Shown: positions 10,425-26,224 of the stretch, piece by piece | How the letters are laid out: each line of letters begins with the position of its first letter | Numbering within the stretch: the stretch's first letter is position 1 | IMG/VR virus record: IMGVR_UViG_3300003322_000128 | Location: 1 to 64,000 of that record | Direction: 5' to 3' (one strand) | DNA from: a virus | Length of the DNA: 64,000 nt | Position numbers and translations under genes: made by a program | Notes under the pieces: model-generated | Told to the model about the DNA's origin: nothing | What the model saw: the letters and a program-made list of their open reading frames with translations, nothing else | Databases searched by the model: none

Positions 10425-10500
10425 GTGTGGGTCGAAGAAGAACGGTTATCAAACTAATTATGGGTAAACACATCGTTCTTCGCTTTTATATCCACACATG
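10425..10500 (+). ncRNA. Candidate small structured RNA
   Basis: GTGTGG (10425-10430) pairs with CCACAC (10492-10497), and inside it GAAGAACG (10437-10444) pairs with CGTTCTTC (10474-10481). The element begins at the predicted start site, has no credible reading frame and ends before the next promoter. It may be a small RNA or an attenuating hairpin. Confidence 0.5.
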
Positions 10501-10542
10501 ACTTCTAGTATATTTGACATTAGAAGTCAAGCTTGTTATAAT
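10500..10542 (+). promoter_or_regulatory. Stem-loop/AAGCTT element that is a promoter
   Basis: GACTTCTA (10500-10507) pairs with TAGAAGTC (10521-10528), followed by AAGCTT (10529-10534). TTGACA (10514-10519) sits in the loop and TATAAT is at 10537-10542 (17-bp spacer). This is the full form of the family: stem, -35 in loop, AAGCTT, -10. Confidence 0.8.
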
Positions 10543-10548
10543 TCATCT

Positions 10549-10983
10549 ATGGATACGAAGTATTGCCCAAAGTGCAGGGACACAAAAGCTACAGATGAAT
10601 TTGCAAGGAATAAGGCAAGACCCGACGGACTTGCTGCAAGTTGTAAAAAGTGCAACAGTGATTATAAGAAGTTGCATTATGCGGTAAATAAAGATAAGGT
10701 CGTAGCTAAGGTAAAGGCTAGGAAACAAGAACTTATCGATAAGTGTTGGAAGTACAAAAGTGAGCATGCATGTGCTGATTGTGGATTGGTAGACCCTGTA
10801 GTAATGGAGTTTGACCACATCAGTGACAAAACGATGGGAATTGCCGAGATGGTCCAGCAAGGATATTCTTGGGACAATGTTCTTAAAGAAATCGAAAAAT
10901 GTGAACTTGTTTGTGCCAACTGTCACAGAAGAAGAACCCATACTAGAGCAGGATGGGTTAGAAACATAAACATTGTAGTTTAA
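10549..10983 (+). CDS. HNH endonuclease, 144 aa
   Basis: The N-terminus has a zinc pair (YCPKCRDTK and CKKC) of the type common in free-standing phage HNH enzymes. The core follows: CADCGLVDPVVMEFDHI and CELVCANCHRRRTH, with the DHI and NCH residues of an HNH/EndoVII-like site. The ATG is 6 nt after the -10, so the mRNA is likely leaderless. It may be a homing-type nuclease; it sits next to tRNA-Gly. Confidence 0.88.
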   Translation: MDTKYCPKCRDTKATDEFARNKARPDGLAASCKKCNSDYKKLHYAVNKDKVVAKVKARKQELIDKCWKYKSEHACADCGLVDPVVMEFDHISDKTMGIAEMVQQGYSWDNVLKEIEKCELVCANCHRRRTHTRAGWVRNINIVV

Positions 10984-11054
10984 GCGCTATTAGCTCAACA
11001 GTAGAGCGCCAGTCTTCCAAACTGGATACGCGGGGGCGGCACCCGCATAGCGCT
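10984..11054 (+). tRNA. tRNA-Gly (TCC), aberrant T loop
   Basis: Acceptor GCGCTAT/ATAGCGC with discriminator T, D stem GCTC/GAGC, anticodon stem CCAGT/ACTGG with loop CTTCCAA (anticodon TCC). The T stem GCGGG/CCCGC is intact but its loop is GGCGGCA instead of TTCRANY. It starts directly after the HNH stop codon. Confidence 0.8.
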
Positions 11055-11059
11055 CTTTA

Positions 11060-11087
11060 GCCCCGGAAAAGTTCCGGGGCATTTTCA
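11060..11087 (+). terminator. Intrinsic terminator
   Basis: GCCCCGGAA pairs with TTCCGGGGC (11060-11080), followed by ATTTTC. It closes the HNH/tRNA-Gly unit. Confidence 0.75.
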
Positions 11088-11100
11088 TTTAGGAGAAGAA

Positions 11101-11682
11101 ATGGCCACTGGTTATACAAGCAAGCTTCATGATGGCGAGCAGTCATTCAGCGATTTCGTTCTTGATTGTGCTCGGGCTTTTGGTGCATATGTTCATCTTC
11201 GTGACAACCTGAATACAGTAACTCTTCAAATTGAAGACCGCACATCTACATATGCTGGTTATGTTGATAAGTCTCAGACTGCTTATGACAATTTCACTGC
11301 CCTTACCGAAGATGAGCAGCGGCAGCAGTACAACAAGTATGTTGCTGATATGACAAAGTATTACTCTGACCAGAAGGTTAAGGATGCTGAACTTGCTAAG
11401 CGGTATGGCGAAATGCTTGGTAGGGTTATTGCATGGAATGTTCCTAAGGAGCTTAACAACCTTAAGGAATTCATGAAGGAGCAGCTTGAGCGCAGCATTG
11501 AATTTGATTGCAAGACATATAATTTCAATGCGCCTACATTTGAAGAGTGGCTTGATGATAAGGTTAGCTATCTCGAAAGGTCACTCAGAAATGATGTAGA
11601 AAGTCTAGAGAAGGAAAAGAAGAGGATTACAGAAGCACGTGCTTGGCATGAGGCTCTTCTGAAGGCTGCTCAGCAGTTCTGA
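11101..11682 (+). CDS. Helical hypothetical protein, 193 aa
   Basis: AGGAGAAGAA precedes the ATG. The sequence is mostly helical with charged heptads, strongest in the C-terminal 50 residues (SLEKEKKRITEA). No catalytic motif or membrane segment is seen. It stands alone between a terminator and a promoter. Confidence 0.75.
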   Translation: MATGYTSKLHDGEQSFSDFVLDCARAFGAYVHLRDNLNTVTLQIEDRTSTYAGYVDKSQTAYDNFTALTEDEQRQQYNKYVADMTKYYSDQKVKDAELAKRYGEMLGRVIAWNVPKELNNLKEFMKEQLERSIEFDCKTYNFNAPTFEEWLDDKVSYLERSLRNDVESLEKEKKRITEARAWHEALLKAAQQF

Positions 11683-11696
11683 AAAATCCGGGCGGG

Positions 11697-11725
11697 TTGG
11701 CTTGACTCGCCTAAGCTGCTATAAT
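11697..11725 (+). promoter_or_regulatory. Promoter for a leaderless gene
   Basis: TTGGCT (11697-11702), 17-bp spacer ending in AAGCTGC, TATAAT (11720-11725). The ATG follows 6 nt later. The AAGCT just before the -10 links it to the stem-loop/AAGCTT family. Confidence 0.7.
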
Positions 11726-11731
11726 ATACTC

Positions 11732-11929
11732 ATGGAAGAAACAGTTTCATACAGCTTTGCTGTACAAATCTATCGTAATGACGCAGGCACCTACACATAT
11801 GGTGTCTTTCAGGAAATTGAATCTGAAGAAGAGGACGACCTACAGTTGCTAGAAGTTGGTGAAGCTGATACAATCAACGAAGCAGCAGAGATGGTTGGAA
11901 AAAGTTTGAAGACTCTATTTCCTGCGTGA
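11732..11929 (+). CDS. Acidic hypothetical protein, 65 aa
   Basis: The ATG lies at the expected transcription start, so the message is probably leaderless. The product is acidic, with a run EIESEEEDD in the middle and a helical end. Family unknown. Confidence 0.68.
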   Translation: MEETVSYSFAVQIYRNDAGTYTYGVFQEIESEEEDDLQLLEVGEADTINEAAEMVGKSLKTLFPA

Positions 11930-11934
11930 TTTTT

Positions 11935-11953
11935 GACCCTTTCGTAAAGGGTC
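11935..11953 (+). promoter_or_regulatory. CTTTCGTAAAG hairpin
   Basis: GACCCTTT pairs with AAAGGGTC across a CGT loop, just before tRNA-Gln. The same loop and inner stem recur at 14144-14156, 18719-18731, 21470 and 21511. Here it may end the upstream mRNA or guide tRNA processing. Confidence 0.55.
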
Positions 11954-11955
11954 TT

Positions 11956-12027
11956 TCCCCTATGGTCTAATGGCAGTGACGCGGGTTTTTGGTGCCTGAG
12001 GTGTTAGTTCGAGTCTAGCTGGGGGAG
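11956..12027 (+). tRNA. tRNA-Gln (TTG)
   Basis: Acceptor TCCCCTA/TGGGGGA with discriminator G, D stem GTC/GAC, anticodon stem CGGGT/GCCTG with loop TTTTGGT (anticodon TTG), T arm TTAGT-type pairing with TTCGAGT. The G discriminator agrees with Gln identity. Confidence 0.87.
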
Positions 12028-12048
12028 CTGTCTAAAAAGGAGAAAATA

Positions 12049-12270
12049 ATGCCTGATTGGGTAGTTACGGTAACAATCATCTACTATCTTGTGGCAGCCA
12101 TTATGATGTTTATGCTCTTGTGTGGTATTGACAAGTATGATGGATTTATACCGAGGTACGGTATGTACCGAGGAGCTACATTGGAAATTGCAGTAAGACT
12201 TCTTATTGCGGCATTTTGGCTTCCATATGCTCTGTTCTTTTACATTCGCGGTCTGATTAGAGGAGACTGA
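12049..12270 (+). CDS. Two-TM membrane protein, 73 aa
   Basis: Hydrophobic stretches lie at about residues 5-25 and 46-66, with a basic end (IRGLIRGD). AAAGGAGAAAATA precedes the ATG. It is the first of six consecutive small membrane proteins, probably one operon. Function unknown. Confidence 0.72.
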   Translation: MPDWVVTVTIIYYLVAAIMMFMLLCGIDKYDGFIPRYGMYRGATLEIAVRLLIAAFWLPYALFFYIRGLIRGD

Positions 12271-12271
12271 A

Positions 12272-12469
12272 ATGCTTTGGCTGCTTATCGTTTTTTTGGC
12301 CGGGTTTGCTATTATGATGGCTGCAATGGGTCCATGGATTTACCGAGCATTTAGGGAAAGCATCCATGACGGATTGCTGATTCTACTGTTTGCAATTATT
12401 CTTGGAACGCTCTTTGTTCCTCTGTCTGTTTTTGGCATCATTGCCATGATGTTCCCTAAGAAGGATTAA
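12272..12469 (+). CDS. Two-TM membrane protein, 65 aa
   Basis: Hydrophobic segments at 2-22 and 33-60 are joined by a charged loop (RAFRESIHD). It starts 1 nt after the previous stop. A gene pair with the previous protein is likely; no family is recognised. Confidence 0.7.
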   Translation: MLWLLIVFLAGFAIMMAAMGPWIYRAFRESIHDGLLILLFAIILGTLFVPLSVFGIIAMMFPKKD

Positions 12470-12470
12470 G

Positions 12471-12734
12471 ATGGAAATTCTGTTCTGGGTTTGGGTTATT
12501 CCTGCCGCTGTATTTGCGATTATCCTTTCACTCATGGTGTTTTGCTTTGCTATGATGAATAGTCAGTCTGGTGACCAAGTTGGAGCATTTCTGACTCTTC
12601 TGCTGATTCCTGTTGTTATTGCTGGTTCATCAATTTGGCCGGTTTCCTTCCCGATTGTTTCTTATCTTGGATATCGAGATGAGAAGCGTATTAAGAAGGT
12701 TAATGCTGAATGGCAGGCTAAGCACGGTCTATGA
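12471..12734 (+). CDS. Two-TM membrane protein, 87 aa
   Basis: Two long hydrophobic regions (about 3-28 and 38-66) are followed by a basic cytoplasmic-type tail (RDEKRIKKVNAEW). It begins 1 nt after the preceding stop. Function unknown. Confidence 0.72.
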   Translation: MEILFWVWVIPAAVFAIILSLMVFCFAMMNSQSGDQVGAFLTLLLIPVVIAGSSIWPVSFPIVSYLGYRDEKRIKKVNAEWQAKHGL

Positions 12735-12741
12735 ACAACCC

Positions 12742-12761
12742 GCCCGGAAACGGGCAAGCTT
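12742..12761 (+). promoter_or_regulatory. Stem-loop/AAGCTT intergenic element
   Basis: Arms GCCCG and CGGGC around a GAAA tetraloop (12742-12755), AAGCTT at 12756-12761, then GAAGGGAG. Confidence 0.85.
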
Positions 12762-12776
12762 TGAAGGGAGATTGTT

Positions 12777-13073
12777 ATGGGATGGGTGTTGCTGGTTGTC
12801 GTCTTGGTTGCACTGTGGTACCGTAGCAACTACAAAGGCGCAATAAAAATGTATGAGCATGAGAAAATGCTCAACAAACTAGCCCAAGGTGAAAATTACC
12901 GAAGGCTTGTGGGATTTACTCATAACGGTAGGAAGTATAAGGCCAGGGTTAGGCGCTGGGATGTTGACGAAGCCGGGCCGGATATGGCAGAGTTGTGGTG
13001 TATTGAAGGTTCTAATCCAGACGGATGGACCGAATATTTTTTGTGGAATAAGAAGGACTTGAAGTTCCTATGA
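12777..13073 (+). CDS. One-TM membrane protein, 98 aa
   Basis: An N-terminal anchor (WVLLVVVLVALWY) is followed by a soluble domain of about 80 residues with basic and aromatic residues. It overlaps the next gene by ATGA. No family recognised. Confidence 0.72.
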   Translation: MGWVLLVVVLVALWYRSNYKGAIKMYEHEKMLNKLAQGENYRRLVGFTHNGRKYKARVRRWDVDEAGPDMAELWCIEGSNPDGWTEYFLWNKKDLKFL

Positions 13074-13267
13074 TATTCTTTATCATTGCATATACAGTGG
13101 TTGGAATGTATGCAACTCTCCTTGCATGGGGTCTTGCGACTATTGATATCCGGAAGCGAGACATTTCTTTGCTTGGGGCAATTCGTTCTATTGCCATAGG
13201 AATTTTCTGGCTTCCTTGTTTGATAATCTGTCTAATTTGGGTTGGATGGGAATATCATACAAAGTAA
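13070..13267 (+). CDS. Two-TM membrane protein, 65 aa
   Basis: Hydrophobic segments near 2-22 and 38-58 flank a charged turn (DIRKRD). It is coupled to the previous gene by a 4-nt overlap. It resembles the 12049 product in layout (a TM pair ending in W and basic residues). Confidence 0.7.
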   Translation: MIFFIIAYTVVGMYATLLAWGLATIDIRKRDISLLGAIRSIAIGIFWLPCLIICLIWVGWEYHTK

Positions 13268-13273
13268 TAAACT

Positions 13274-13291
13274 GCCCGAAAGGGCAAGCTT
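13274..13291 (+). promoter_or_regulatory. Stem-loop/AAGCTT intergenic element
   Basis: GCCC/GGGC stem with GAAA tetraloop (13274-13285), AAGCTT at 13286-13291. Confidence 0.82.
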
Positions 13292-13311
13292 TCATAACAG
13301 GAAGGTTGACA

Positions 13312-13509
13312 ATGGACATCCTTTTTAGCTTCTATATGGTTGGCGCAATTGTAATGCTCTGCTTTGTAATTCTATGTATGTTCCTTGCCGTAATGGGTGG
13401 GGAAATTCCATGGAATTGGTTTGTGCAGGCTGTTCTTATCGCAGCAACTTGGCCAATCATGATTGCATGGGGATTGGCTGCTGTTGTCTGGAATAAGATT
13501 AGGAAGTAA
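13312..13509 (+). CDS. Two-TM membrane protein, 65 aa
   Basis: The ATG at 13312 follows CAGGAAGG; an upstream in-frame TTG would run through the stem-loop. Hydrophobic segments at about 4-27 and 36-58 end in a basic tail (NKIRK). It abuts the next gene, which starts right after its stop. Confidence 0.7.
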   Translation: MDILFSFYMVGAIVMLCFVILCMFLAVMGGEIPWNWFVQAVLIAATWPIMIAWGLAAVVWNKIRK

Positions 13510-14124
13510 ATGGATTTTAAAACTCTGCATGAATCAATTCCCTATGCAACTGGGGATAAACTTCATGTAATGGAAATGAAGCCTTATCCCAATATTACAT
13601 TGTCAATGCCTGGACGGCATCAAAACGATACTGACCCTAAGGGCGGAGATTTTGTTGTCATGGTTGATGATGTAAATAAGGGTTGGGTGAAGCATCAGTT
13701 TACTCATGGTGACCTTTGGCATGACCTTGAAAAGAAGCTCTGGGCTCATGGTCCGGAGGCTAAGGAATTGATGAGAGATTATGCCAAGGTTGTCCGTGGT
13801 GCAGACCCTGAGTCTACTGGTTGGGATTTTGAGAACGGTCTTATTTCTGAGACGCTAGAGGAGTGGTGGGGGCATACGCTGTTGCCTCAGACATTTTTGT
13901 ACGCTGTTCAGTGCCTAGCTGTGGCTGAACACCGCCGCTATTGGCCTCATGAGTGCAAGGGTGGCGGAAGGTACTTGCCAGCACGCTTCTCAATGGGTAT
14001 CATCGAAGGAAAGTGGTCCGCCGAAGATGCTGAGAAGTTTCAATATCGTGGCAGACAGGGACTTGAGAATCTGATTAAGGAGAAGGGCAGGCCCACTCCG
14101 CTTAAGAAGTTCGCCGAAAGCTAA
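13510..14124 (+). CDS. Hypothetical soluble protein, 204 aa
   Basis: A globular protein with conserved-looking His and Trp residues (HQFTHGDLWHDLEKKLWAHG; EEWWGHTLLPQTF). It starts immediately after the previous stop. No known fold can be named from the sequence. Confidence 0.75.
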   Translation: MDFKTLHESIPYATGDKLHVMEMKPYPNITLSMPGRHQNDTDPKGGDFVVMVDDVNKGWVKHQFTHGDLWHDLEKKLWAHGPEAKELMRDYAKVVRGADPESTGWDFENGLISETLEEWWGHTLLPQTFLYAVQCLAVAEHRRYWPHECKGGGRYLPARFSMGIIEGKWSAEDAEKFQYRGRQGLENLIKEKGRPTPLKKFAES

Positions 14125-14139
14125 TTTTGGCGGGTTTAC

Positions 14140-14167
14140 GGGACCTTTCGTAAAGGGCCCGAAGCTG
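14140..14167 (+). promoter_or_regulatory. Stem-loop/AAGCTG intergenic element
   Basis: GGG-A-CCTTT pairs with AAAGG-G-CCC across a CGT loop (14140-14160), then G and AAGCTG (14162-14167). TACAAT (14169-14174) follows as a possible -10. Confidence 0.7.
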
Positions 14168-14172
14168 ATACA

Positions 14173-14382
14173 ATGAAAGGCATGATGACACAGAATCCAA
14201 AGGCTACTGAGAAAACAGTTACCTTGACACTGAAGATTAAAGCGGATAACATGGCTGAGGTTTACGGCCGGATTGCAGAGATTGTAAAGTCTGCTGAGAA
14301 TTCCGCAGATGTTGTTTCAGTAGATGTAAGGGACGCAACCCCTAAGATTACTATTGGGGCAACGCGTGAAGCAACTTTCTGA
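14173..14382 (+). CDS. Small helical/beta hypothetical protein, 69 aa
   Basis: The first ATG at 14173 overlaps the possible TACAAT -10, so translation may instead begin at the ATG at 14182, which lies where a transcript would start. The sequence EKTVTLTLKIKADNMAEVYGRIAEIV suggests an alpha/beta fold. Function unknown. Confidence 0.62.
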   Translation: MKGMMTQNPKATEKTVTLTLKIKADNMAEVYGRIAEIVKSAENSADVVSVDVRDATPKITIGATREATF

Positions 14383-14623
14383 AGAATTGGCCACCCACTT
14401 CCTTGCTAAAGATTATAAGTGGAAGTTCGATTATGGCTATGCCAATCCCGACGCTGATGACATTGAAAAGGCTCTTCAGAAAGCCGTGCTAATGTTGACA
14501 GAACACGATGACAATACTCAACTTGAGGTTGGGCATCTGCTGTTTAAAAAGCGGACAGGTGTTATTGACGTGTTTGTTCATGCAGGAACAATTGGAGAAA
14601 ATAATGAAGACAGCAACGTTTGA
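14366..14623 (+). CDS. Hypothetical protein, 85 aa
   Basis: GTG at 14366 is preferred, with GGGG 6-9 nt upstream; it overlaps the previous gene by 17 nt. The protein is helical at its N-terminus and ends in a beta-like VIDVFVHAG. Family unknown. Confidence 0.65.
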   Translation: MKQLSEELATHFLAKDYKWKFDYGYANPDADDIEKALQKAVLMLTEHDDNTQLEVGHLLFKKRTGVIDVFVHAGTIGENNEDSNV

Positions 14624-15047
14624 GTATACTGATAAGACCGACGTTGATAGCAGTCTTGCCACGACTGTATATTACAATTCTGGCAATGAGACGATGGCCA
14701 TTGAGTTTCACAATGGCGGGTCTGCAATTTACGGCAGCGTGCCCGAGGGATTTTACAAGGGATTTGTAACCCTTGAAAGCATCGGCGGAACGTACAACAG
14801 TTTCGTTAAGAAGACTTTCCCTAATGTAAGTGATGGGACTGTTTACGATGTAAACTATGTTGACGTCAATTCTAAGAAGCCAACTCATCGCTATATGGTG
14901 AAGGGTTATGTACGCCACTTCGGTACATTTACGGCCGGAAGTGATGAAGAGGCACGTCAGCAGTTCCTTGACAGCCTTCATGATGATGGCTATGATGGTG
15001 CCGACCTTGCGGTAACGGAGGTGTACATTCTTGAGTCAGGTTCATAA
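14604..15047 (+). CDS. KTSC-domain protein, 147 aa
   Basis: Residues 12-65 fit the KTSC domain: SSLATTVYYNSGNETMAIEF, GSAIYGSVPEGFY and a SIGGTYNSFVKK segment like the Lys-Thr-Ser-Cys region at the end of lysyl-tRNA synthetases. The remainder (RYMVKGYVRHFGTF, EARQQFLDSL) is a second small domain. GGAGAAAATA precedes the ATG. Role unknown. Confidence 0.75.
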   Translation: MKTATFEYTDKTDVDSSLATTVYYNSGNETMAIEFHNGGSAIYGSVPEGFYKGFVTLESIGGTYNSFVKKTFPNVSDGTVYDVNYVDVNSKKPTHRYMVKGYVRHFGTFTAGSDEEARQQFLDSLHDDGYDGADLAVTEVYILESGS

Positions 15048-15342
15048 TGCTCGGTCTATTGCTGAGCTAACGGAACTGATGAACAACAATGATGAACTTG
15101 TTGTTGATTTCAGTAAGTCAGTTGGTTGTGTTTACTGTACTAGGCTGAAGCCTCATTTTGAAAAGGCAGCCGCGAAGTCTGATAAGACTTTTGTGGTTGT
15201 TGACCTTCTTGAGGTTCCTGATGCCATTAATGCATATGGTATTCAGTCAGTCCCTACTGTTCTGCACTTTAAGGTAGGGGAACAGACTGCTGTTATTACT
15301 GGCCGAACATCCGTCACAATCCTCAGGGAGCTTGGCGAATAA
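15031..15342 (+). CDS. Thioredoxin-like protein, 103 aa
   Basis: The redox motif is GCVYC at residues 32-36 within a VVDFSKSVGCVYCTRLKP strand-loop-helix, and SVPT supplies the cis-proline. The TTG start is supported by GGAGGTG upstream. It probably reduces a phage or host enzyme; the class II ribonucleotide reductase encoded at 50449 needs such a partner. Confidence 0.88.
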   Translation: MSQVHNARSIAELTELMNNNDELVVDFSKSVGCVYCTRLKPHFEKAAAKSDKTFVVVDLLEVPDAINAYGIQSVPTVLHFKVGEQTAVITGRTSVTILRELGE

Positions 15343-15348
15343 TTCGGG

Positions 15349-15372
15349 GCGGGTGTAAAAACCCGCAAGCTT
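15349..15372 (+). promoter_or_regulatory. Stem-loop/AAGCTT intergenic element
   Basis: Arms GCGGGT (15349-15354) and ACCCGC (15361-15366), AAGCTT at 15367-15372, then an AT-rich stretch and AAAGGAG. Confidence 0.85.
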
Positions 15373-15400
15373 TCAATTTTAAAATTTAAAGGAGAATCAG

Positions 15401-15676: not shown

Positions 15677-15688
15677 AGTGGAGACAGA

Positions 15689-17679: not shown

Positions 17680-17686
17680 TTACCAA

Positions 17687-17723
17687 GAGAGGGGTTGACA
17701 GCTCCTCTCAAGCTAGTTAGAAT
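17687..17723 (+). promoter_or_regulatory. Stem-loop/AAGCTA element that is a promoter
   Basis: GAGAGG (17687-17692) and CCTCTC (17704-17709) flank TTGACA (17695-17700). AAGCTA (17710-17715) and TAGAAT (17718-17723) follow, with a 17-bp spacer. A 60-nt leader separates it from the next gene. Confidence 0.82.
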
Positions 17724-17783
17724 AGAAAAAGAATAAAACAACTTATAGCAAAGATATAGAATCAAAGAGAATAGATAATAATT

Positions 17784-17972
17784 ATGACTATTTCGCTAGT
17801 GGTTCTCTTCGGCATCGCCCTTGTGGTGTGTATTCTGAAGGACAATATGGGTAAGCTCCACGCGTTCATCGCTGTGATGTTCGGGCTTTACCTTGGTTCT
17901 ACTGGAGTTGGACCTTCTCTCAAGGAGGGGACTGAGAATTTCCTCCATTGGCTGAGTCAGATTCAATTCTGA
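17784..17972 (+). CDS. Small membrane protein, 62 aa
   Basis: A hydrophobic N-terminus (ISLVVLFGIALVVCIL), then HAFIAVMFGLYLGSTGVGPSL. The layout resembles short membrane proteins of Streptomyces plasmids and phages whose second segment ends in LGSTG. No strong ribosome binding site is seen. Function unknown. Confidence 0.7.
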   Translation: MTISLVVLFGIALVVCILKDNMGKLHAFIAVMFGLYLGSTGVGPSLKEGTENFLHWLSQIQF

Positions 17973-17978: not shown

Positions 17979-18005
17979 GGGGTTTCGTAAAGAGACCCCA
18001 AGCTT
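17979..18005 (+). promoter_or_regulatory. Stem-loop/AAGCTT intergenic element
   Basis: GGGGT (17979-17983) pairs with ACCCC (17995-17999); the loop contains TTCGTAAAG. AAGCTT at 18000-18005, then an AAGGAG. Confidence 0.82.
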
Positions 18006-18687: not shown

Positions 18688-18713
18688 GGCCAGATGAAAA
18701 TCTGGCCAAGCTT
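18688..18713 (+). promoter_or_regulatory. Stem-loop/AAGCTT intergenic element
   Basis: GGCCAGAT and ATCTGGCC around a GAAA tetraloop (18688-18707), AAGCTT at 18708-18713. Confidence 0.87.
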
Positions 18714-19844: not shown

Positions 19845-19864
19845 GCCCCGAAAGGGGCAAGCTT
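19845..19864 (+). promoter_or_regulatory. Stem-loop/AAGCTT intergenic element
   Basis: GCCCC/GGGGC with GAAA tetraloop (19845-19858), AAGCTT at 19859-19864. Confidence 0.85.
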
Positions 19865-20495: not shown

Positions 20496-20502
20496 CGGTG
20501 CT

Positions 20503-20522
20503 GCGGGGCAACCCGCAAGCTT
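20503..20522 (+). promoter_or_regulatory. Stem-loop/AAGCTT intergenic element
   Basis: GCGGG/CCCGC with GCAA tetraloop (20503-20516), AAGCTT at 20517-20522, immediately followed by GGAGG. Confidence 0.85.
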
Positions 20523-20752: not shown

Positions 20753-20758
20753 CTGACC

Positions 20759-20935: not shown

Positions 20936-20937
20936 AC

Positions 20938-21324: not shown

Positions 21325-21357
21325 AACTCTTGAGGTACAATAGACTCAGGAGGCAAT

Positions 21358-21510
21358 ATGGAAGGTGAGCTAATTTCCGTGGACCAGGTATGGTTTGGAA
21401 TTCGAGAACCAGAATGGTGGCCGGAAGACGAAGAAGATTTTGAAGAAAGACTTTTTGTGCCAAAAAAGGTGACCTTTCGTAAAGAGCTAAAAATTCGGCG
21501 CAAAAATTAG
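21358..21510 (+). CDS. Acidic then basic hypothetical protein, 50 aa
   Basis: AGGAGG precedes the ATG. The middle is acidic and Trp-rich (EPEWWPEDEEDFEE) and the end is basic (RKELKIRRKN). A CTTTCGTAAAG hairpin is embedded in its 3' coding end, with a second copy just downstream. Function unknown. Confidence 0.6.
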   Translation: MEGELISVDQVWFGIREPEWWPEDEEDFEERLFVPKKVTFRKELKIRRKN

Positions 21511-21532
21511 ACCTTTCGTAAAGGGCCTATTT

Positions 21533-21553
21533 GCCCCATTCAGGGGCAAGCTT
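21533..21553 (+). promoter_or_regulatory. Stem-loop/AAGCTT intergenic element
   Basis: GCCCC/GGGGC (21533-21547), AAGCTT at 21548-21553. A perfect 12-bp palindrome CACGCATGCGTG (21569-21580) follows, possibly an operator. Confidence 0.82.
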
Positions 21554-21610
21554 GAATGTATATATGAACACGCATGCGTGATACCATACTTCGGTTGAGG
21601 AATCAAGAGG

Positions 21611-21639
21611 TTGACATCTTCCCTCTGCTCCCGTAGTGT
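21611..21639 (+). promoter_or_regulatory. Promoter, distal of a tandem pair
   Basis: TTGACA (21611-21616), 17-bp spacer, TAGTGT (21634-21639). Confidence 0.65.
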
Positions 21640-21676
21640 CTGACCCATCGAAGCAACCCGCCCAAAAAATTGGGGG

Positions 21677-21705
21677 TTGACAGCAAGAGACAAGACAGCT
21701 AAAGT
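21677..21705 (+). promoter_or_regulatory. Promoter, proximal of a tandem pair
   Basis: TTGACA (21677-21682), 17-bp spacer, TAAAGT (21700-21705), 30 nt before the gene at 21735. Confidence 0.75.
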
Positions 21706-21734
21706 AGGACTCAAGAAACCAACAGGAGGTCAAA

Positions 21735-22088
21735 ATGAAGGTGTCCGTTCGATTCAACAAGAGCACGGTTAAGAAGACCTCTCGCTCTAAGGTTGGCGGG
21801 ATTGTTGTCAAGCGTCTCGGCAAGGTTCGTGACACCCACGTTGCCGGAACTGTTGTGCTTAAGAAGGTGCATTTTGGCCGGACTCTCCTTGGTGAGGTGA
21901 TTGAGGAGACCGACAACATCTTGACCCCCCGTGCTGAGGATGGTATGTTTTCTCGTGCGGTGAAGAACTGGAATCGTGCTCGGTTCATCGGCTCTCTTGG
22001 TGGATACTACAACACCAGGACTGGTGAGCGTGTGATGGATGCCGAGTATGTTTACATGGCTGGTTCTGACATTTACTACACTGACTGA
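21735..22088 (+). CDS. Basic hypothetical protein, 117 aa
   Basis: The N-terminal 30 residues are strongly basic (RFNKSTVKKTSRSKVGG), the rest beta-rich with conserved-looking aromatic residues. Tandem promoters and an AGGAGG site suggest high expression together with the Lsr2-like gene. It may bind DNA. Confidence 0.75.
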   Translation: MKVSVRFNKSTVKKTSRSKVGGIVVKRLGKVRDTHVAGTVVLKKVHFGRTLLGEVIEETDNILTPRAEDGMFSRAVKNWNRARFIGSLGGYYNTRTGERVMDAEYVYMAGSDIYYTD

Positions 22089-22102
22089 AAAGGAATAGTT
22101 AA

Positions 22103-22684
22103 ATGGCTACGGAGCGTGAATACCTTATTAGCATCGGTCTCGCTAAGGAAGGACGCGGGCGGTTTTCTTCTGAAGCTAAGGCTGCTTTGGAAAAGGCTAA
22201 GTCTGAGGGTATGGTTTTTGACCTGACCCCGGCTGAAATTGCTAAGCTGGAAAGGCAGAATAGGACAAAGAGGGTCAAGGAAGTTTCTCCTAAGCCTGTG
22301 AGTGTCCGTCGCCCCACTCAGGATGAATACGACGTCAAGGCTGTTCGTGCATGGGGTGAGCAGACTGGGGCTATCGAAAAGGGAAAGCGCGGTAAGCTTT
22401 CTACAGCTCTTATCAACGCCTACCTTGCATCTAACAAGGTTGAAAAGAAGGTGGCCGTTAAGAAGTCTGCTGTAAAGAGGTCTATTGTCAGGTCTGAGAC
22501 GGTTGGTTATACTTTTGCCAAGCGTAAGGATACTGACCCGGCATTCATTTCGGAGCCGCTGGTTGCCGTGATGACTTGCGGGAAGTGCTCTCGTGGGGTA
22601 TCCTACTGTGGATGCCAGGATGGTCCGGTTGCCCCAAGTTATCTTGGTGGTCAGCCTCTGATGTTGACCCGCCCGGTTAAGTAG
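22103..22684 (+). CDS. Lsr2-like DNA-binding protein with zinc motif, 193 aa
   Basis: Residues 76-105 (VRAWGEQTGAIEKGKRGKLS then LINAYLASNK) match the Lsr2 C-terminal DNA-binding module, in which an RGR-type turn inserts into the AT minor groove. An N-terminal segment (YLISIGLAKEGRGRFSSEAKAAL) repeats the same helix-turn-helix pattern. A Cys cluster (TCGKCSRGVSYCGC) follows near 172-185. Phage Lsr2-like proteins may silence or protect AT-rich DNA in a GC-rich host. Confidence 0.75.
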   Translation: MATEREYLISIGLAKEGRGRFSSEAKAALEKAKSEGMVFDLTPAEIAKLERQNRTKRVKEVSPKPVSVRRPTQDEYDVKAVRAWGEQTGAIEKGKRGKLSTALINAYLASNKVEKKVAVKKSAVKRSIVRSETVGYTFAKRKDTDPAFISEPLVAVMTCGKCSRGVSYCGCQDGPVAPSYLGGQPLMLTRPVK

Positions 22685-22693
22685 GGTAACGTT

Positions 22694-22718
22694 GTTGGGG
22701 AGGATAAACCTCCCCAAC
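22694..22718 (+). promoter_or_regulatory. Intergenic hairpin without AAGCTT
   Basis: GTTGGGGAGG (22694-22703) pairs with CCTCCCCAAC (22709-22718). It occupies the usual place of the stem-loop family but lacks AAGCTT and a T tract. Confidence 0.65.
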
Positions 22719-22730
22719 TGAGAGGAAAAA

Positions 22731-23057
22731 ATGTACGGAGACAATTCATATCGGCCGGATTATCCTGGTGCTAGGCTGACGAATCACCAGCACCGTGGAA
22801 ATAGGCGCGATAATGCTGCGATTAACAAGCTTCTTGACTCCATTACCAATGTGGATAGCAATGTCATTCAGTTGGCTAATGCTATGGTAAATACTGCTAG
22901 TCCAGGAGTTCGCGGTAGGCTTATGGATTTGGCAATTGCCATTATCTTTGCCGAAGCAGATGCATACGTTTATCAGAATGATGATTCTGATGGACCGAAG
23001 AACGCCATGGTTTTGGTTGACACTATGAACCAGTTTGGCATCCAACTGAAGCCTTGA
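22731..23057 (+). CDS. Hypothetical protein, 108 aa
   Basis: The N-terminus is Asn/Arg/Tyr-rich and probably flexible; residues 28-105 are helical (INKLLDSITNVDSNVIQLA...). GAGAGG precedes the ATG. Function unknown. Confidence 0.72.
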   Translation: MYGDNSYRPDYPGARLTNHQHRGNRRDNAAINKLLDSITNVDSNVIQLANAMVNTASPGVRGRLMDLAIAIIFAEADAYVYQNDDSDGPKNAMVLVDTMNQFGIQLKP

Positions 23058-23082
23058 CAGGCACCGAAGCACCTGCTAGTCT
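23054..23082 (+). promoter_or_regulatory. Promoter
   Basis: TTGACA (23054-23059) overlaps the upstream stop; 17-bp spacer, TAGTCT (23077-23082). It drives the DUF932 gene. Confidence 0.75.
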
Positions 23083-23120
23083 TTAATCAATCAAGCAAGA
23101 CAAACCGAGGAGAAAAAATC

Positions 23121-24134
23121 ATGGTTGCTGCTGTTGAGACCTACAAGGATATGGCTGCATTTGCTTCCCTCCGTGAGGAAGCTTGGCATGGACTTGGTAC
23201 GGTGTTTGACAAGCCGGTCACCACGTCTGAGATGTTGGACCTTGCTCACCTTTCTAACTGGAATCTTCGTATGGTTCCACTGGACATCGATGGTGAGTAT
23301 TCTGACCGTATCGAGTACAAGATTCTTCGCGACAATCCGTTCATGAAGCGCGTTGACCGTCTTGGAATTGTTGGGCGGCGCTATAAGCTTTTCCCGAACG
23401 AAGAGCTTTTCGCCTTCGGTGACAATCTGACCAATCAGAGGCGCCGGTGGGAAACGGCTGGTAGCCTTGATGGTGGCCGAACGGTATTTGCAACTCTTGC
23501 CGATACGGAAGACATTGTTCTTGACCCGAATGGCGCAGGAGATATCATTAAGAAGTATCTTCTTCTGAAGTCTTCTCACGATGGTTCTGGCAAGATTGTT
23601 GCCAAGCGTATCAACACCCGTGTTGTTTGCAAGAATACTCTGAACATTGGTCTGAAGGAGAATGGCGCGGAATTCAGCATTCGTCACACTCAGAAGCTGG
23701 AAGGCCGTCTTGCTGAGGCTAAGTTGGCTCTAGGGTTTGCTGAGGATTACGATGAAGAGTTTGAGGCTGCCATGCAGACTCTTTACGCCAAGGATATGAC
23801 CATGGTGGAATTCGAGCGGATTGTTCTGGCCGAATTCCCTGAGCCGGATGCCGAAAAGGCTGGGGCTTACACTCGGTGGGAAAACAAGATTGATACTATT
23901 CTGGATGTCTGGGGAGACTCTACCAAGTCTGTCACTGACCTTCCGAATAACGCCTACCGTGGTCTTCAGGTTCTGACTGAGCACAACCAGTGGTTCCGTA
24001 ACCTGCGAAATGAAGAGGGAACGGATACTCCGAATCTGGAGAACTTCCATGCTGCTGGAATGGGTATGGAGGCAAAGACGAATGAGTTCCGGACCCGGGT
24101 CTTCGGCCGGATGATGGAATTCGCAACTGCCTAA
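23121..24134 (+). CDS. DUF932 / phage-plasmid-like protein, 337 aa
   Basis: The family (TIGR03299-like) signature is seen: EEAWHGLGTVF near the N-terminus, then RRYKLFPNEELFAF, the VKRINTRVVCKNTL segment (KRINTRVVCKNTLN) and a late WGDSTK. Members are common on actinobacterial plasmids and phages, where their role is unknown. It has its own promoter and GAGGAG site, which points to a major early product. Confidence 0.87.
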   Translation: MVAAVETYKDMAAFASLREEAWHGLGTVFDKPVTTSEMLDLAHLSNWNLRMVPLDIDGEYSDRIEYKILRDNPFMKRVDRLGIVGRRYKLFPNEELFAFGDNLTNQRRRWETAGSLDGGRTVFATLADTEDIVLDPNGAGDIIKKYLLLKSSHDGSGKIVAKRINTRVVCKNTLNIGLKENGAEFSIRHTQKLEGRLAEAKLALGFAEDYDEEFEAAMQTLYAKDMTMVEFERIVLAEFPEPDAEKAGAYTRWENKIDTILDVWGDSTKSVTDLPNNAYRGLQVLTEHNQWFRNLRNEEGTDTPNLENFHAAGMGMEAKTNEFRTRVFGRMMEFATA

Positions 24135-24144
24135 TCTGTGAATA

Positions 24145-24182
24145 GAGGGGCTATCTCATAAACGGGATAGCCCCTCAAGCTT
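24145..24182 (+). promoter_or_regulatory. Stem-loop/AAGCTT intergenic element
   Basis: An 11-bp stem GAGGGGCTATC/GATAGCCCCTC (24145-24176), AAGCTT at 24177-24182. TATAAT lies at 24191-24196 but no -35 is at the right distance. Confidence 0.87.
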
Positions 24183-24210
24183 TTGTATTGTATAATGAGG
24201 AGATAAAGCG

Positions 24211-24375
24211 ATGGCAGAGTTTCTGCTTTCTGTAGTTGGGAGTGCAGTAATTGCCGGGGTTATTGAGGCAATTGCATTCATGACTGGCCATGACCCGAAT
24301 TACTTCGTTGTCTGGCTTTTTGTATTCCTTGCATGGTGGGGTATCTTCCTGATTGATGCAGACCTTGACTTTTAG
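24211..24375 (+). CDS. Two-TM membrane protein, 54 aa
   Basis: Hydrophobic segments at 4-24 and 33-49 around a polar loop (TGHDPNY). GAGGAGATAAAGCG precedes the ATG. Function unknown. Confidence 0.66.
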   Translation: MAEFLLSVVGSAVIAGVIEAIAFMTGHDPNYFVVWLFVFLAWWGIFLIDADLDF

Positions 24376-24383
24376 GAATACAT

Positions 24384-24405
24384 GGGGAAGTAATTCCCCA
24401 AGCTT
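24384..24405 (+). promoter_or_regulatory. Stem-loop/AAGCTT intergenic element
   Basis: GGGGAA/TTCCCC with GTAA loop (24384-24399), AAGCTT at 24400-24405, then GAAGGAGG. Confidence 0.85.
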
Positions 24406-24414
24406 GAAGGAGGA

Positions 24415-24753
24415 ATGAAATTGAAACTGCCAATGTTCACCAAAGCTTTGGAGACAAAGGTAATCGAAGAAAGGGTATTCGTTGACCTAGAGCATCTAGT
24501 TCAGCTATTGTTTGATATCTCGAATGAAACATCTATTGCAGCAACTAAGAACAGGGACCCGGCATTGGGTGCCATGACTCTTGGTGTGACGACCATCGGA
24601 CAGGCTCTAGATGGGGCTCTGACAGCCCACAAGGAAGCCAACGGACTTACGGAGCAACCGAAGCCTTGTGGAGTCTCACGGCCACACCCTAGCCATTTGA
24701 GGATGCTGGACCGTAAGAGGGTTCGTTGTCCTGGTGTTGACCAGCCTGATTAA
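24415..24753 (+). CDS. Hypothetical protein, 112 aa
   Basis: Helical centre (EHLVQLLFDISNETSIAATK) and a basic, Cys/His-containing tail (CGVSRPHPSHL, RKRVRCPG). The ATG at 24415 follows GAAGGAGG. The next promoter's -35 lies within its 3' end. Confidence 0.72.
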   Translation: MKLKLPMFTKALETKVIEERVFVDLEHLVQLLFDISNETSIAATKNRDPALGAMTLGVTTIGQALDGALTAHKEANGLTEQPKPCGVSRPHPSHLRMLDRKRVRCPGVDQPD

Positions 24754-24765
24754 ACATGCTACACT
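24737..24765 (+). promoter_or_regulatory. Promoter of a structured leader
   Basis: TTGACC (24737-24742), 17-bp spacer, TACACT (24760-24765). The transcript would begin near 24772 and carry about 145 untranslated bases. Confidence 0.75.
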
Positions 24766-24810
24766 AGATACATTCGTTAGGTTGAATAACCAACGCCTTT
24801 CTTTCAAATA

Positions 24811-24879
24811 GATTCCGGTACTCCTATCAGTCTAATCAGGCAAGGAGCTAAGCAACAAGTCGGCTGTTGTGCCGGAATC
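24811..24879 (+). ncRNA. Three-way-junction RNA leader
   Basis: GATTCCGG (24811-24818) closes with CCGGAATC (24872-24879). Inside are two further stems: CTCCT/AGGAG and CAACA/TGTTG. An upstream hairpin (AGGTTG/ACCAAC-type) precedes it. The fold sits between a good promoter and an AAGGAGG site, as a riboswitch or protein-binding leader would. No known class is recognised. Confidence 0.55.
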
Positions 24880-24915
24880 TCTTCATATCAGCAAACATAA
24901 ACAAGGAGGATTAAC

Positions 24916-25041
24916 ATGCCTACGGTTTACGATTACGATGACGAGACTGGTGACTTCAAGGTCATTGATGAGCCAGAGCAGCGTACTTTTGTTGATTCTA
25001 GCTTTGATTTTGACCCTTATAGTTACATTGAGAACAAGTAA
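24916..25041 (+). CDS. Acidic peptide, 41 aa
   Basis: Asp/Tyr-rich (YDYDDETGDFKV; FDFDPYSY), no basic or membrane segment. AAGGAGGATTAAC precedes the ATG. It lies under the structured leader, so it may be the regulated product. Function unknown; DNA mimicry would fit the composition but is speculation. Confidence 0.62.
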   Translation: MPTVYDYDDETGDFKVIDEPEQRTFVDSSFDFDPYSYIENK

Positions 25042-25052
25042 AAGGAAATACA

Positions 25053-25277
25053 TTGGCTATTGTTAAGGTAAGCACCACTCAGCGGAATGCGTCTGTTGTT
25101 AATGTTCAGGCTTGTGTGTTTGGTGTAGAGTCTGAAATTCTTCAAGCAACTGACCCTAAGAATATCATTATTGAATTGATGGGTGCTCCGGAAAAGATTG
25201 CTCAAATTGTTGGCCGAACGGGTTCCCGAATTGTGGCACAGGTTGACCGTATGCCACGGGACATGAACGCAGAGTAA
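25053..25277 (+). CDS. Hypothetical protein, 74 aa
   Basis: TTG start with AAAAGGAAATACA upstream. Alpha/beta pattern (VNVQACVFGVE; NIIIELMGAPEKIAQIVGR). It is followed by a promoter-type stem-loop. Family unknown. Confidence 0.66.
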   Translation: MAIVKVSTTQRNASVVNVQACVFGVESEILQATDPKNIIIELMGAPEKIAQIVGRTGSRIVAQVDRMPRDMNAE

Positions 25278-25283
25278 TCTTCT

Positions 25284-25320
25284 GGTGGGGCTTGACAGCC
25301 TCACCAAGCTTAGGTAGGGT
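25284..25320 (+). promoter_or_regulatory. Stem-loop/AAGCTT element that is a promoter
   Basis: GGTGGGGC/GCCTCACC (25284-25305) with TTGACA in the loop (25292-25297), AAGCTT (25306-25311), TAGGGT (25315-25320) at 17 bp. Confidence 0.82.
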
Positions 25321-25354
25321 TCTCTCAAGAAGCCCGGAAGAAAGGCAAGGAAAA

Positions 25355-26020
25355 ATGGCTGACCCTAACTCACTTGATGGAGTGTTCGAGAGCTGGAAGG
25401 GAATCTGCTGGATTTGCGATAAGCGAGTCAAGCGAACTGTAGCCAGTCGGGACCACATCATTCCAAAGTCTCATGGTGGACCTAACCATGCGGCCAACTA
25501 CGCTCTTGCTCACAAGATTTGCAATGAGCGGCGGGGTAATGATACACACCTTCCTAGTGTTACTGAGGCACTTCGCATTCTGAACATTTGCCAGAATGAC
25601 ATTTGTGGCCGGTGTGGAATTGAAAAGCAGAACTGTGGTATGATTCTGTTGGTTCAGAAGGGAACATCCCGCTGGATTTTGACAGCAGTGTGCCTGATGT
25701 GTAAGCTTATGGACCAGACAGCTTCGGATGAAGAGCGATTTTCATCTATTCCATTTCAAAAGAAGAGGATTGAGAGAGTTTCTATGGATGACATGTCTGT
25801 TGTTGACACCCTGACTCCTGCTCAGCTTGAAGAGGGCGACTATGTTCTTTTCCGGGCCGGAAAGAAGGAGCACATGGGAGTCGTATCCAGTCTTCCCACC
25901 GATAATGGGACTTTCTTTTCTGTGGAAATTCATGATGATGAGCGTGACGAGAAGGTTGTTTACAATCTGAGTGTTGACGCTGAAATTAGCCTTCTGATGT
26001 ATACTCAGATGGCTGTTTGA
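25355..26020 (+). CDS. HNH endonuclease with C-terminal domain, 221 aa
   Basis: The HNH core is CWICDKRV, SRDHIIPKSHGGPNHAANY and AHKICNERRGN, in the order of McrA-type HNH enzymes. A second Cys set (CGRCGIEKQNC, CLMC) follows, then a beta-rich C-terminal domain (EEGDYVLFRAGKKEHMGVV). Such enzymes may cut host DNA or act in phage DNA processing. It has its own promoter. Confidence 0.87.
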   Translation: MADPNSLDGVFESWKGICWICDKRVKRTVASRDHIIPKSHGGPNHAANYALAHKICNERRGNDTHLPSVTEALRILNICQNDICGRCGIEKQNCGMILLVQKGTSRWILTAVCLMCKLMDQTASDEERFSSIPFQKKRIERVSMDDMSVVDTLTPAQLEEGDYVLFRAGKKEHMGVVSSLPTDNGTFFSVEIHDDERDEKVVYNLSVDAEISLLMYTQMAV

Positions 26021-26026
26021 TAAATT

Positions 26027-26059
26027 GGGCCGGGTTGCAAATCAACCCGGCCCAAGCTT
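26027..26059 (+). promoter_or_regulatory. Stem-loop/AAGCTT intergenic element
   Basis: A 10-bp stem GGGCCGGGTT/AACCCGGCCC (26027-26053), AAGCTT at 26054-26059, then TTTAAGGAG. Confidence 0.87.
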
Positions 26060-26074
26060 ATTTAAGGAGATGCA

Positions 26075-26182
26075 ATGCGAATCATTGAATGGCTTTTCAA
26101 GCTGGTAATTTACACCACCTGTGGTGTTCTTGGCGGCGTGGTAGGTTTCTGGGGTTCAGTGTGGATTGTGTCACACATGTGA
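26075..26182 (+). CDS. One-TM peptide, 35 aa
   Basis: A single hydrophobic segment (LVIYTTCGVLGGVVGFWGSVWIV). AAGGAGATGCA precedes the ATG. Size and layout fit a small membrane modulator; function unknown. Confidence 0.6.
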   Translation: MRIIEWLFKLVIYTTCGVLGGVVGFWGSVWIVSHM

Positions 26183-26191
26183 CCACATCAC

Positions 26192-26224
26192 GGGGTTGAC
26201 GTTCAACCCCAAGCTTGTTAGACT
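26192..26224 (+). promoter_or_regulatory. Stem-loop/AAGCTT element that is a promoter
   Basis: GGGGTT/AACCCC (26192-26210), TTGACG (26196-26201) overlapping the left arm, AAGCTT (26211-26216), TAGACT (26219-26224) at 17 bp. Confidence 0.82.

Follow-up and report, generated by a model that had tools for sequence, protein, structure and literature searches.

Elements at the locus

The stretch of viral DNA analysed in this work, which we call the window, is positions 1 to 64,000 of IMG/VR virus record IMGVR_UViG_3300003322_000128, the first 64 kb of a record of 98,783 bases. Its plus strand carries many copies of a short element, a hairpin followed directly by AAGCT, and in some copies a predicted promoter is nested in the hairpin, with its -35 hexamer in or at the loop. 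The phage records closest to the window are those of the Streptomyces phages Faust, TunaTartare and Sham (Stanwilliamsviridae, Loccivirinae), and the phage of the window is itself a Streptomyces phage of this subfamily. The elements are concentrated in an arm that holds numerous small genes together with tRNAs and an RNA ligase, and that we refer to as the right arm. In the window's own record 35 of the 38 plus-strand elements lie within the first 40 kb, and 44 of the 51 elements in Faust and 40 of the 49 in Sham lie beyond 80 kb.

An earlier note on this DNA had placed TTGACA or TTGACG in or at the loop, with a -10 hexamer at 17 bp, at 10500, 17687, 25284 and 26192; this anatomy holds at all four sites with exact hexamers. 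The first of these loop-class elements (10499-10542, plus strand, as are all the elements described below) has TTGACA at 10514-10519, AAGCTT at 10529-10534 and, after a spacer of 17 bp (N17), TATAAT at 10537-10542. Its loop is ATTTG, so the TTGACA spans the loop and the 3' arm, and the ATG at 10549 of an HNH endonuclease (PHROGs) stands 6 nt past the -10, leaderless. Element PA (17687-17723; TTGACA 17695-17700, AAGCT 17710, N17, TAGAAT 17718-17723) precedes an open reading frame (ORF) of 62 aa at 17784-17972, itself ahead of the RNA ligase gene. Element PB (25283-25320; TTGACA 25292-25297, AAGCTT 25306-25311, N17, TAGGGT 25315-25320) lies before an HNH endonuclease gene, and element PD (26192-26224; TTGACG 26196-26201, AAGCTT 26211-26216, N17, TAGACT 26219-26224) before a BrnT/RelE-like gene.

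Two further sites, 11697 and 14162, had been described as lacking a classic loop -35. The site at 14162 has no canonical -35, but at both sites a poor hexamer, TTGGCT and TTTCGT respectively, does stand at 17 bp. The element at 11690-11725 has TTGGCT at 11697-11702, AAGCT at 11713, N17, TATAAT at 11720-11725 and an ATG at 11732; it also contains an overlapping second register, TTGACT-N17-TATACT, and is grouped with Faust_17033. The element at 14139-14174 has TTTCGT at 14146-14151 at the loop, AAGCT at 14162, N17, TACAAT at 14169-14174 and an ATG at 14182, and by the sigma-70/HrdB-type consensus given below its TTTCGT is a poor -35. Similar elements, with TTCGTA at the loop, are found in Faust, TunaTartare, Sham, Comrade, Gilson, Moab and G004, and the protein behind the 14162 element is grouped with none of their counterparts. 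At all six sites the 3' arm of the hairpin falls within the promoter spacer.

Three of these window sites (10500, 11697 and 14162) belong to a leaderless class of 11 elements in 11 arms, in which the start codon follows the -10 by 5-8 nt (6-7 nt at the three) and there is no Shine-Dalgarno sequence. For S. griseus, one study reports 364 mRNAs with a leader of 0-10 nt (PMC8914203). Most leaderless-class elements carry TTCGTA at the loop. The sequence TTTCGTAAA recurs in the window at 11940, 14146, 17983, 18721, 21475 and 21514, and five of seven copies lie in a short hairpin. The plus strand of the first 47 kb has it seven times and the minus strand once, and it is found mainly in the same arm in Faust and in the window's own record.

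Element counts and promoter register

The detector requires both the pairing and the AAGCT. Thirteen full right arms (47-60 kb) hold 34-51 elements each and a 20-kb piece, G005, holds 21; Wakanda, BillNye and Byblos have 49, 42 and 48. The first 47 kb of the window contain 35 elements on the plus strand, 5 on the minus strand and 3 in the reversed sequence, and the corresponding ranges over eleven arms or pieces are 21-51, 1-10 and 0-3. Among the 60 permutations of the pentamer, counted in six arms, AAGCT gives 238 hits against a median of 14 and 41 for the next best. Two genomes, G001 and G003, were excluded from pooled counts because they appear to duplicate the phage of the window and G004, respectively, with the same identities.

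Host sigma-70/HrdB-type promoters follow the consensus TTGACN, a spacer of 16-18 bp, and TAnnnT. Promoter scores were cut at 16 for the window permutation test, the nine-arm counts, the count of TTGAC in the loop over 14 arms and the first orthology and register tests, and at 15.5 for the stem-pair, loop-type, placement, G.T, arm-swap, leaderless and 50-group class counts. Five of the 35 window elements score at least 16; when their downstream halves are permuted the mean is 1.31, and only 5 of 2000 permutations reach five. Over nine right arms 44 of 344 elements score at least 16, against a permuted mean of 8.2 and a highest value of 15 in 200 permutations. The same threshold is reached by 12 of 573 AAGCT sites with no detected hairpin and by 42 of 4160 hairpins with no AAGCT.

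The earlier note had also proposed aligning the elements on AAGCTT and scoring their hexamers. Aligned on AAGCT, the 559 elements of 14 arms show -35-like TTGAC peaking in the loop register, with starts at -16, -15 and -14 from AAGCT (23, 20 and 9; total 52), and a second peak at -24 (20), while other offsets hold 0-6. TTGAC lies in or at the loop in 66 of the 559, and a TAnnnT follows at 16-18 bp in 61 of these, so that the host consensus is present there as it is at the four loop-class sites of the window; in the five exceptions TTGAC spans the end of the loop and the 3' arm. The midpoint of the -35 differs from the hairpin centre by -0.1 +/- 1.7 nt (44 elements, nine arms). Within the loop class AAGCT stands upstream of the -10, and 45 of 56 elements have it at position 0 or -1 relative to the end of the hairpin; below the loop score the same holds for 321 of 364 elements. 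The TG of an extended -10 is seen more often in the loop class (24 of 56 elements) than at other TTGAC-N17-TAnnnT sites (25 of 112, five arms), and is not general. The proposal that some elements are promoters with the -35 in the loop thus agrees with every sequence test available, and the idea that a start signal and an RNA structure share one cassette is borne out by anatomy and register.

A second nesting

A TTG peak at -24 in the nine-arm register analysis led us to recognize a spacer class, which comprises 21 of the 559 elements, with TTGAC 24-25 nt before AAGCT (20 at -24, one at -25). Here a -10-like hexamer reads (T/C)AAGCT, with T in 5 and C in 16, so that all but its first base is AAGCT, and AAGCT can be part of a predicted promoter. 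On the note's other idea, that AAGCTT may be a binding site for a phage regulator touching the -10 region, the positions point both ways, as AAGCT stands ahead of the -10 in the loop class and within a -10-like hexamer in the spacer class. The hairpin lies within the spacer in 17 and extends across the TTGACA in 4. TTGAC, 17 bp after the hexamer, and xAAGCT occur together 34 times on the plus strand of the 14 arms and once on the minus strand. The window has one such promoter-like element at 31246-31275, with TTGACA at 31246-31251, a hairpin with a GAAA loop in the spacer (31252-31269) and CAAGCT at 31269-31274 as the -10-like hexamer; all six members of its orthologous group are of the spacer class. 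As far as sequence can tell, the spacer class supports the nesting, though its -10 is poor, and it leaves the case for the loop class as it was.

What appears to be a cross between the loop and spacer classes, with TTGACA in the hairpin, 17 bp and TAAGCT as the -10, is seen at Faust L008 37969-38031 and at 118215 of the Sham record. TTGACA-N17-TAAGCT also occurs at 25679-25707 of the window, inside an HNH gene and with no detected hairpin, where it is probably due to chance.

Conservation of position and paired change of the arms

Orthology was assigned from the protein behind each element, and therefore concerns genes with a detected element. Among 420 elements in 11 arms, 50 orthologous groups span at least three genomes. 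Forty of these are plain, that is to say free of a nested promoter, three are loop-class, two spacer-class (6/6 and 3/3 members throughout), one mixes leaderless and plain members, two loop and plain, and two spacer and plain. Of the mixed groups, PB is a clear switch of the loop class, one has leaderless starts in four of six members, and two have a single spacer-class member each; we judge the remaining loop and plain group to be a false positive of the promoter score.

Loop-class elements occur at PA in 11 of 11 arms, at PD in 11 of 11, at PB in 10 of 11 and at a fourth position, PC, which we did not find in the window, in 10 of the 10 arms that have it. The hexamers are held while the stems change. 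Each orthologous position shows 8-10 distinct stems, and PC has ten different stems, yet TTGACA in 10/10 and TAGTCT in 10/10. The stems nonetheless remain paired: at PA to PD an element's own arms pair in 98-99% of cells, compared with 75-88% when arms are swapped between orthologues. Pairs of orthologous loop-class stems show 398 compensatory, 158 one-sided and 26 broken changes, which are counts over sequence pairs and not independent events; one alignment, A1, was excluded from pair counts as its loop lengths differ.

Some loop-class elements are shared by two genomes (Faust/Sham, Comrade/Gilson, Moab/G004, and window/Faust at 11713) and were not counted as stable positions. Wakanda, BillNye and Byblos carry PA-like loop promoters; their orthology with PA is not established because the long ORF behind them encodes another protein.

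Signature of an RNA at gene junctions

The stems appear to have the character of RNA. Pairs of the G.T type outnumber A.C pairs by 58 to 13 in loop-class stems and by 183 to 77 in the others, where base composition (first 35 kb of the window) predicts about 1.5 to 1. GNRA or UNCG loops, which are extra-stable tetraloops, close 183 of 342 plain elements. Below the loop score 194 of 364 elements have one, whereas among other hairpins 72 of 1391 do; the tetraloop classes that are their reverse complements are found in 8 of the 364, and a C-G pair closes the UNCG loop in 47 of 63. The hairpin therefore looks, on this evidence, to have been selected as sense-strand RNA. DNA cruciforms or protein-binding sites would not show such a strand bias in tetraloops and G.T pairs. 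Predicted RNA folds are more stable than those of shuffled sequences at 17680-17740 (z -2.8), 25275-25335 (z -2.3) and the plain 26015-26085 (z -4.2), and more weakly at 10490 (z -1.7) and 26180 (z -1.1).

Placement is tied to the gene on the left. The distance from the upstream stop codon to the hairpin is about 6 nt. Of the elements below the loop score 258 of 346, and of the loop class 32 of 54, have a hairpin that begins 3-8 nt past the stop. The distance from AAGCT to the next start codon is looser, with medians of 23 nt below the loop score and 38 nt in the loop class. In Faust, 31 of 43 gaps of 35-80 nt between two coding sequences (CDS) hold an element, and in 6 of the 12 that the detector missed one is visible by eye. 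The count is 7 of 12 for CDS-CDS gaps above 80 nt, 0 of 2 at 21-34 nt and 0 of 38 at 20 nt or less, and two of eight tRNA-CDS junctions have one. In this one genome, then, the majority of CDS-CDS gaps longer than 20 nt have the hairpin.

Plain elements and decay

The suggestion that plain elements are decayed promoters that kept the RNA part fails in general. Once the three promoter-like classes are set apart, 40 of the 50 groups of orthologues have no member but plain ones, GNRA or UNCG loops are found in 183 of the 342 plain elements, and no clear residue of the hexamers is left. Within these 342, TTG is found 11 times at -24 and 8, 3 and 10 times at -16, -15 and -14, against 1-10 elsewhere; TAnnnT is found 3-7 times at +7 to +9 against 1-11 elsewhere. 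Register and orthology thus lead us to reject decay as a general account, and we retain it for single cases.

The clear case of interconversion is at PB, where Sham_31736 reads TGGTGGGGA-GAAA-TCCCCACCA with neither hexamer and ten other phages have TTGACA. A single pair of promoter and plain element is formed by window 10529 (promoter) and G004_18425 (plain). The plain element at 26025-26059 of the window (AAGCT at 26054) has a stem that resembles PC of Faust and TunaTartare and is possibly a decayed promoter; the match between the downstream proteins, however, is not convincing.

One candidate was set aside. The group with the stem GCGGGGTGTT..GACACCCCGC (window 27261, Faust_32790, Sham_33798) reaches the promoter score in some genomes but was rejected as a promoter position, as its TTGACA or TTGGCA lies across an arm and its -10 is poor. 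Faust_32790 and Sham_33798, and singly Blueeyed_31799, remain inside the counts of 44 and 56.

Interpretation and alternatives

We infer promoter activity and a 3'-end role of the hairpin from the features described above. In the reading that we hold to be probable, the hairpin is an intercistronic 3'-end or separator structure for the gene on the left, and at certain junctions it has nested within it a host-type promoter that serves the gene on the right. Two functions would then occupy one DNA stretch and act on different transcripts. The hairpin with AAGCUU would be an intercistronic RNA module that marks where the left gene's message ends and protects this 3' end, acting as a block to 3' exonucleases, a processing point or a pause point, and would separate that message from the next ribosome-binding site; the position after the stop codon suggests that it serves the left gene. 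The sigma-70/HrdB-type promoter may be nested in two ways. In the loop class the -35 would be a loop spelled TTGACA, with the 3' arm as spacer and the -10 placed after AAGCT; in the spacer class TTGACA would stand ahead of the hairpin, the hairpin in or across the spacer, and AAGCT would close the (T/C)AAGCT hexamer. Some nested promoters would give leaderless starts. RNA read through from upstream would contain the hairpin, whereas RNA from the nested promoter starts past the -10 and cannot contain it, so that the RNA part would act on read-through RNA alone.

Several observations weigh against this reading. The RNA folds of 11690 (z -0.8) and 14140 (z -0.7) are no better than shuffles. The formal covariation count at PA is weak: the six aligned sequences contain one two-sided change and 61 of 500 shuffles reach their covariation score, although no slid register does, and the case for paired change therefore rests on the larger set of stem pairs. 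That set has limits of its own, since the detector's requirements restrict the number of 'broken' pairs and hide elements without hairpin or AAGCT, and pooled counts include orthologues, so that rows are not independent. The promoter score is a hand-set consensus with a maximum of 19.1. In the spacer class CAAGCT is a poor -10, present in 16 of 21 elements (31246 among them), and TTGAC at -24 is also found at 14 of 849 AAGCT sites with no detected hairpin. The role of AAGCUU in plain elements is unexplained by the model. Finally, none of seven CDS-tRNA junctions in Faust has a hairpin, and a pure 3'-end role would not predict such bare junctions unless tRNA processing makes those ends.

A real but clearly less probable alternative is a fusion of terminator and promoter, in which the elements are U-poor 'I-shaped' terminators or attenuators and transcription restarts at the nested promoter in some of them. 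A related design without AAGCT lends it some weight. At 5833-5877 of the window a terminator-like hairpin with a T-run in its 3' arm has TTGACA at the loop (5848-5853), N18 and TATACT at 5872-5877, upstream of an ORF at 5925-6227 and of tRNA-Lys at 6241. Eight of 11 arms have such a T-run hairpin, with TTGACA at its loop and a -10 at 18 bp, and in Faust, TunaTartare and Sham it lies directly ahead of tRNA-Lys, where the window has the ORF between. In addition, U-poor hairpins account for 353 of 535 structured transcript 3' ends of S. clavuligerus in the accessible text of that study (PMC8269248). However, the canonical combination of GC-rich hairpin and T-run occurs only at 5833-5877; base counts reveal no T-run after AAGCT. 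No promoter stands in register ahead of the genes that follow plain elements, and an efficient terminator would silence these genes unless an antiterminator exists; the median of 23 nt from AAGCT to the start leaves no room for a promoter, which makes it unlikely that plain elements are strong terminators.

The remaining alternatives fare worse. We think it improbable that the elements work like the switch of T4 I-TevI, in which read-through RNA with the hairpin would be translated poorly and nested-promoter RNA well, so that the promoter times translation. The topology is the same, with inner-promoter RNA free of the structure (PMC2988022, from its available text), and HNH endonuclease genes follow two of the promoter elements in the window, but the start codon lies a median of 38 nt (loop class) or 23 nt (others) past AAGCT, which leaves the ribosome-binding site uncovered; by these distances and the window folds, no sequestration of that site in the stem was found. 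Plain elements, moreover, have the hairpin with no inner promoter. We would give marginally less credit still to an operator at the level of DNA, an inverted repeat around the -35 bound by a phage repressor or activator. Its appeal is that the -35 stands at the centre of the repeats and that most of them are in the right arm. An operator half-site should be conserved, though, and there are 8-10 distinct stems per orthologous position; arms swapped among the promoter elements of one genome pair in 48% (window), 68% (Faust), 70% (Moab) and 79% (Sham) of cases against 98-100% for own arms, and the biases in G.T pairs and tetraloop strand are meaningless for duplex DNA. Chance combined with a compositional artefact has practically no claim on the data. 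TTGACAA is partly self-complementary, and some loop matches therefore come cheaply, but the permutations, the strand and reversed controls, the pentamer permutations and orthology all contradict it. Chance is refuted for the element class, while individual sites could still be inactive.

Comparison with known systems

A literature search at the level of its listings, with most subscription journals beyond its reach, found no description of the element. The systems nearest in kind are the start-associated sequences (SAS) and extended start-associated sequences (ESAS) of cluster K mycobacteriophages; we claim membership neither there nor in the T4 I-TevI type. According to the accessible parts of the two reports, ESAS are a subset in the form of inverted repeats that enclose SigA-like promoters with 17-18 bp spacing (PMC3203893, PMC11373665), and an inverted repeat around a SigA-like promoter in the non-structural half is likewise what we see. 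Both sets of repeats lie at gene starts in the right, non-structural half and are largely stable by gene family, and a leaderless start is predicted beside one in Adephagia. As these sources describe them, SAS are 13-bp sequences beside the start codon, whereas the present module follows the upstream stop codon. Inspection of the listed elements revealed no 13-bp SAS resembling GGGATAGGAGCCC at the start codon, and the Shine-Dalgarno regions are variable. The described ESAS arms have a sequence consensus, whereas the arms here are free but paired (8-10 stems per position, with pairing lost in swaps). Further differences from the SAS/ESAS account are that the loop itself can be the -35 and that plain copies often have RNA tetraloops.

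The closest worked example for the RNA part is the galE hairpin at the E. coli galE-galT junction, which blocks 3' exonucleases and marks an mRNA 3' end (PMC9239205, in the text available). It too has a GC-rich stem of about 8 bp, a 4-nt loop and a place at a cistron junction; it is a single case, and that text mentions neither AAGCUU nor a nested promoter. T4 I-TevI, segB and Aeh1 mobE are alike in that read-through RNA forms a hairpin and inner-promoter RNA does not (PMC2988022); as far as that account goes, their hairpin hides the ribosome-binding site, which is not the case here. The 17-bp palindromes of cluster O mycobacteriophages are comparable in number, with more than 30 dyads per genome, and 14 of 34 are intergenic in Corndog (PMC4351075). 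In the portion of that paper available they have a fixed arm sequence and also occur inside genes, in contrast to the free sequence and conserved pairing of the present elements.

The gene behind PD and the separator idea

The BrnT/RelE-like gene behind PD (26248-26667 in the window) is annotated as BrnT-like in three relatives. One of three members of the family matches DUF4258 in Pfam (E 0.003); the PD protein gave nothing in PHROGs, NCBIfam or Pfam alone, and a sequence search of the PDB gave one unrelated match (E 0.64). Its structure model is of low confidence (mean predicted local distance difference test score, pLDDT, 64), and the top Foldseek matches include the RelE, HigB and YoeB toxins, the best at E 1.6e-3 and none at 0.001 or below. 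All 38 phage records in which the family was found are Streptomyces phages of 121-131 kb. Every one of the 14 examined phages with the element has it, and Samisti12, a phage of the sister subfamily that lacks the element, is not among the 38; this shared distribution is expected from common descent.

T4 RegB, which has a RelE/YoeB fold, cuts a fixed motif between early genes (PMC3014915). By analogy, the hairpin with AAGCUU could be a phage-specific mRNA separator, at or near whose AAGCUU a phage endoribonuclease cuts long transcripts to leave single-gene messages with capped 3' ends; we regard this as a doubtful extension. The PD protein would be the candidate cutter and the counterpart of RegB, and its link to AAGCUU is speculative. 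Under the separator reading, any such module could become a promoter by acquiring TTGACA in its loop or 24 nt before AAGCT, since AAGCT suits the final bases of a -10 as well.

In this phage subfamily one short module appears to serve many junctions of non-structural genes and to be converted in place to a promoter, through a new spelling of the loop or of the bases ahead of the hairpin. One short DNA stretch seems to mark both where the message of one gene stops and where that of the following gene begins. The arms, the loop, AAGCT and the hexamers each change on their own, so that natural variation can reveal each function and single changes can test it. The collection of elements is suited to questions on the insulation of genes in compact genomes, on 3' ends without classical terminators and on the placement of leaderless starts, and the element can serve as an annotation marker for the starts and ends of genes in these genomes.

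Other elements and minor observations

Samisti12 has a single element, which is not above its controls. The pattern GGGNTTGACANNCCCNAAGCT matched five contigs, with no element array in the pieces examined, and viral matches to the GNRA pattern gave no arrays in the pieces examined except in Comrade's record; in bacterial genomes many phyla are among the matches listed for the GNRA pattern. Two proteins of the window's record are 100% identical to those in a 129,916-base record, and this record was the sole match in a search with the phrog_1221 protein.

The plain elements of the window lie, with their loops in brackets, at 1123-1146 (TTCG), 3100-3122 (TTTAT), 4120-4141, 12742-12761 (GAAA), 13273-13291 (GAAA), 15349-15372 (GTAAAA), 17979-18005 (GTAAA), 18688-18713 (GAAA), 19845-19864 (GAAA), 20502-20522 (GCAA), 21530-21553 (ATTCA), 24145-24182 (13-bp stem) and 24383-24405 (GTAA). 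Beyond the element at 26025-26059 discussed above, they continue at 27732-27751 (GAAA), 28009-28030 (GAGA), 28279-28301 (TAT), 29225-29253 (GAAA), 29574-29597 (GAAA), 31005-31031 (CTT), 32417-32445 (GAAA), 32696-32720 (TTTAT), 33610-33637 (TGAT), 34074-34105 (ATAA), 34285-34310 (GAAA), 34757-34784 (GAAA) and 35206-35231 (GAAA). The element at 27234-27266 is counted as plain; its TTGACA spans the loop end and the 3' arm, with no TAnnnT in register.

In two other viral contigs, with no array in the pieces at hand, GGGCTTGACAAGCCCAAGCT is followed by a -10-like hexamer at 18 bp (L024 2222, L025 2995), which may be chance or a parallel case. Lastly, Rfam but not ARAGORN reports tRNA matches in the window at 31850-31923 (31.7 bits) and 10984-11054 (55.5 bits).

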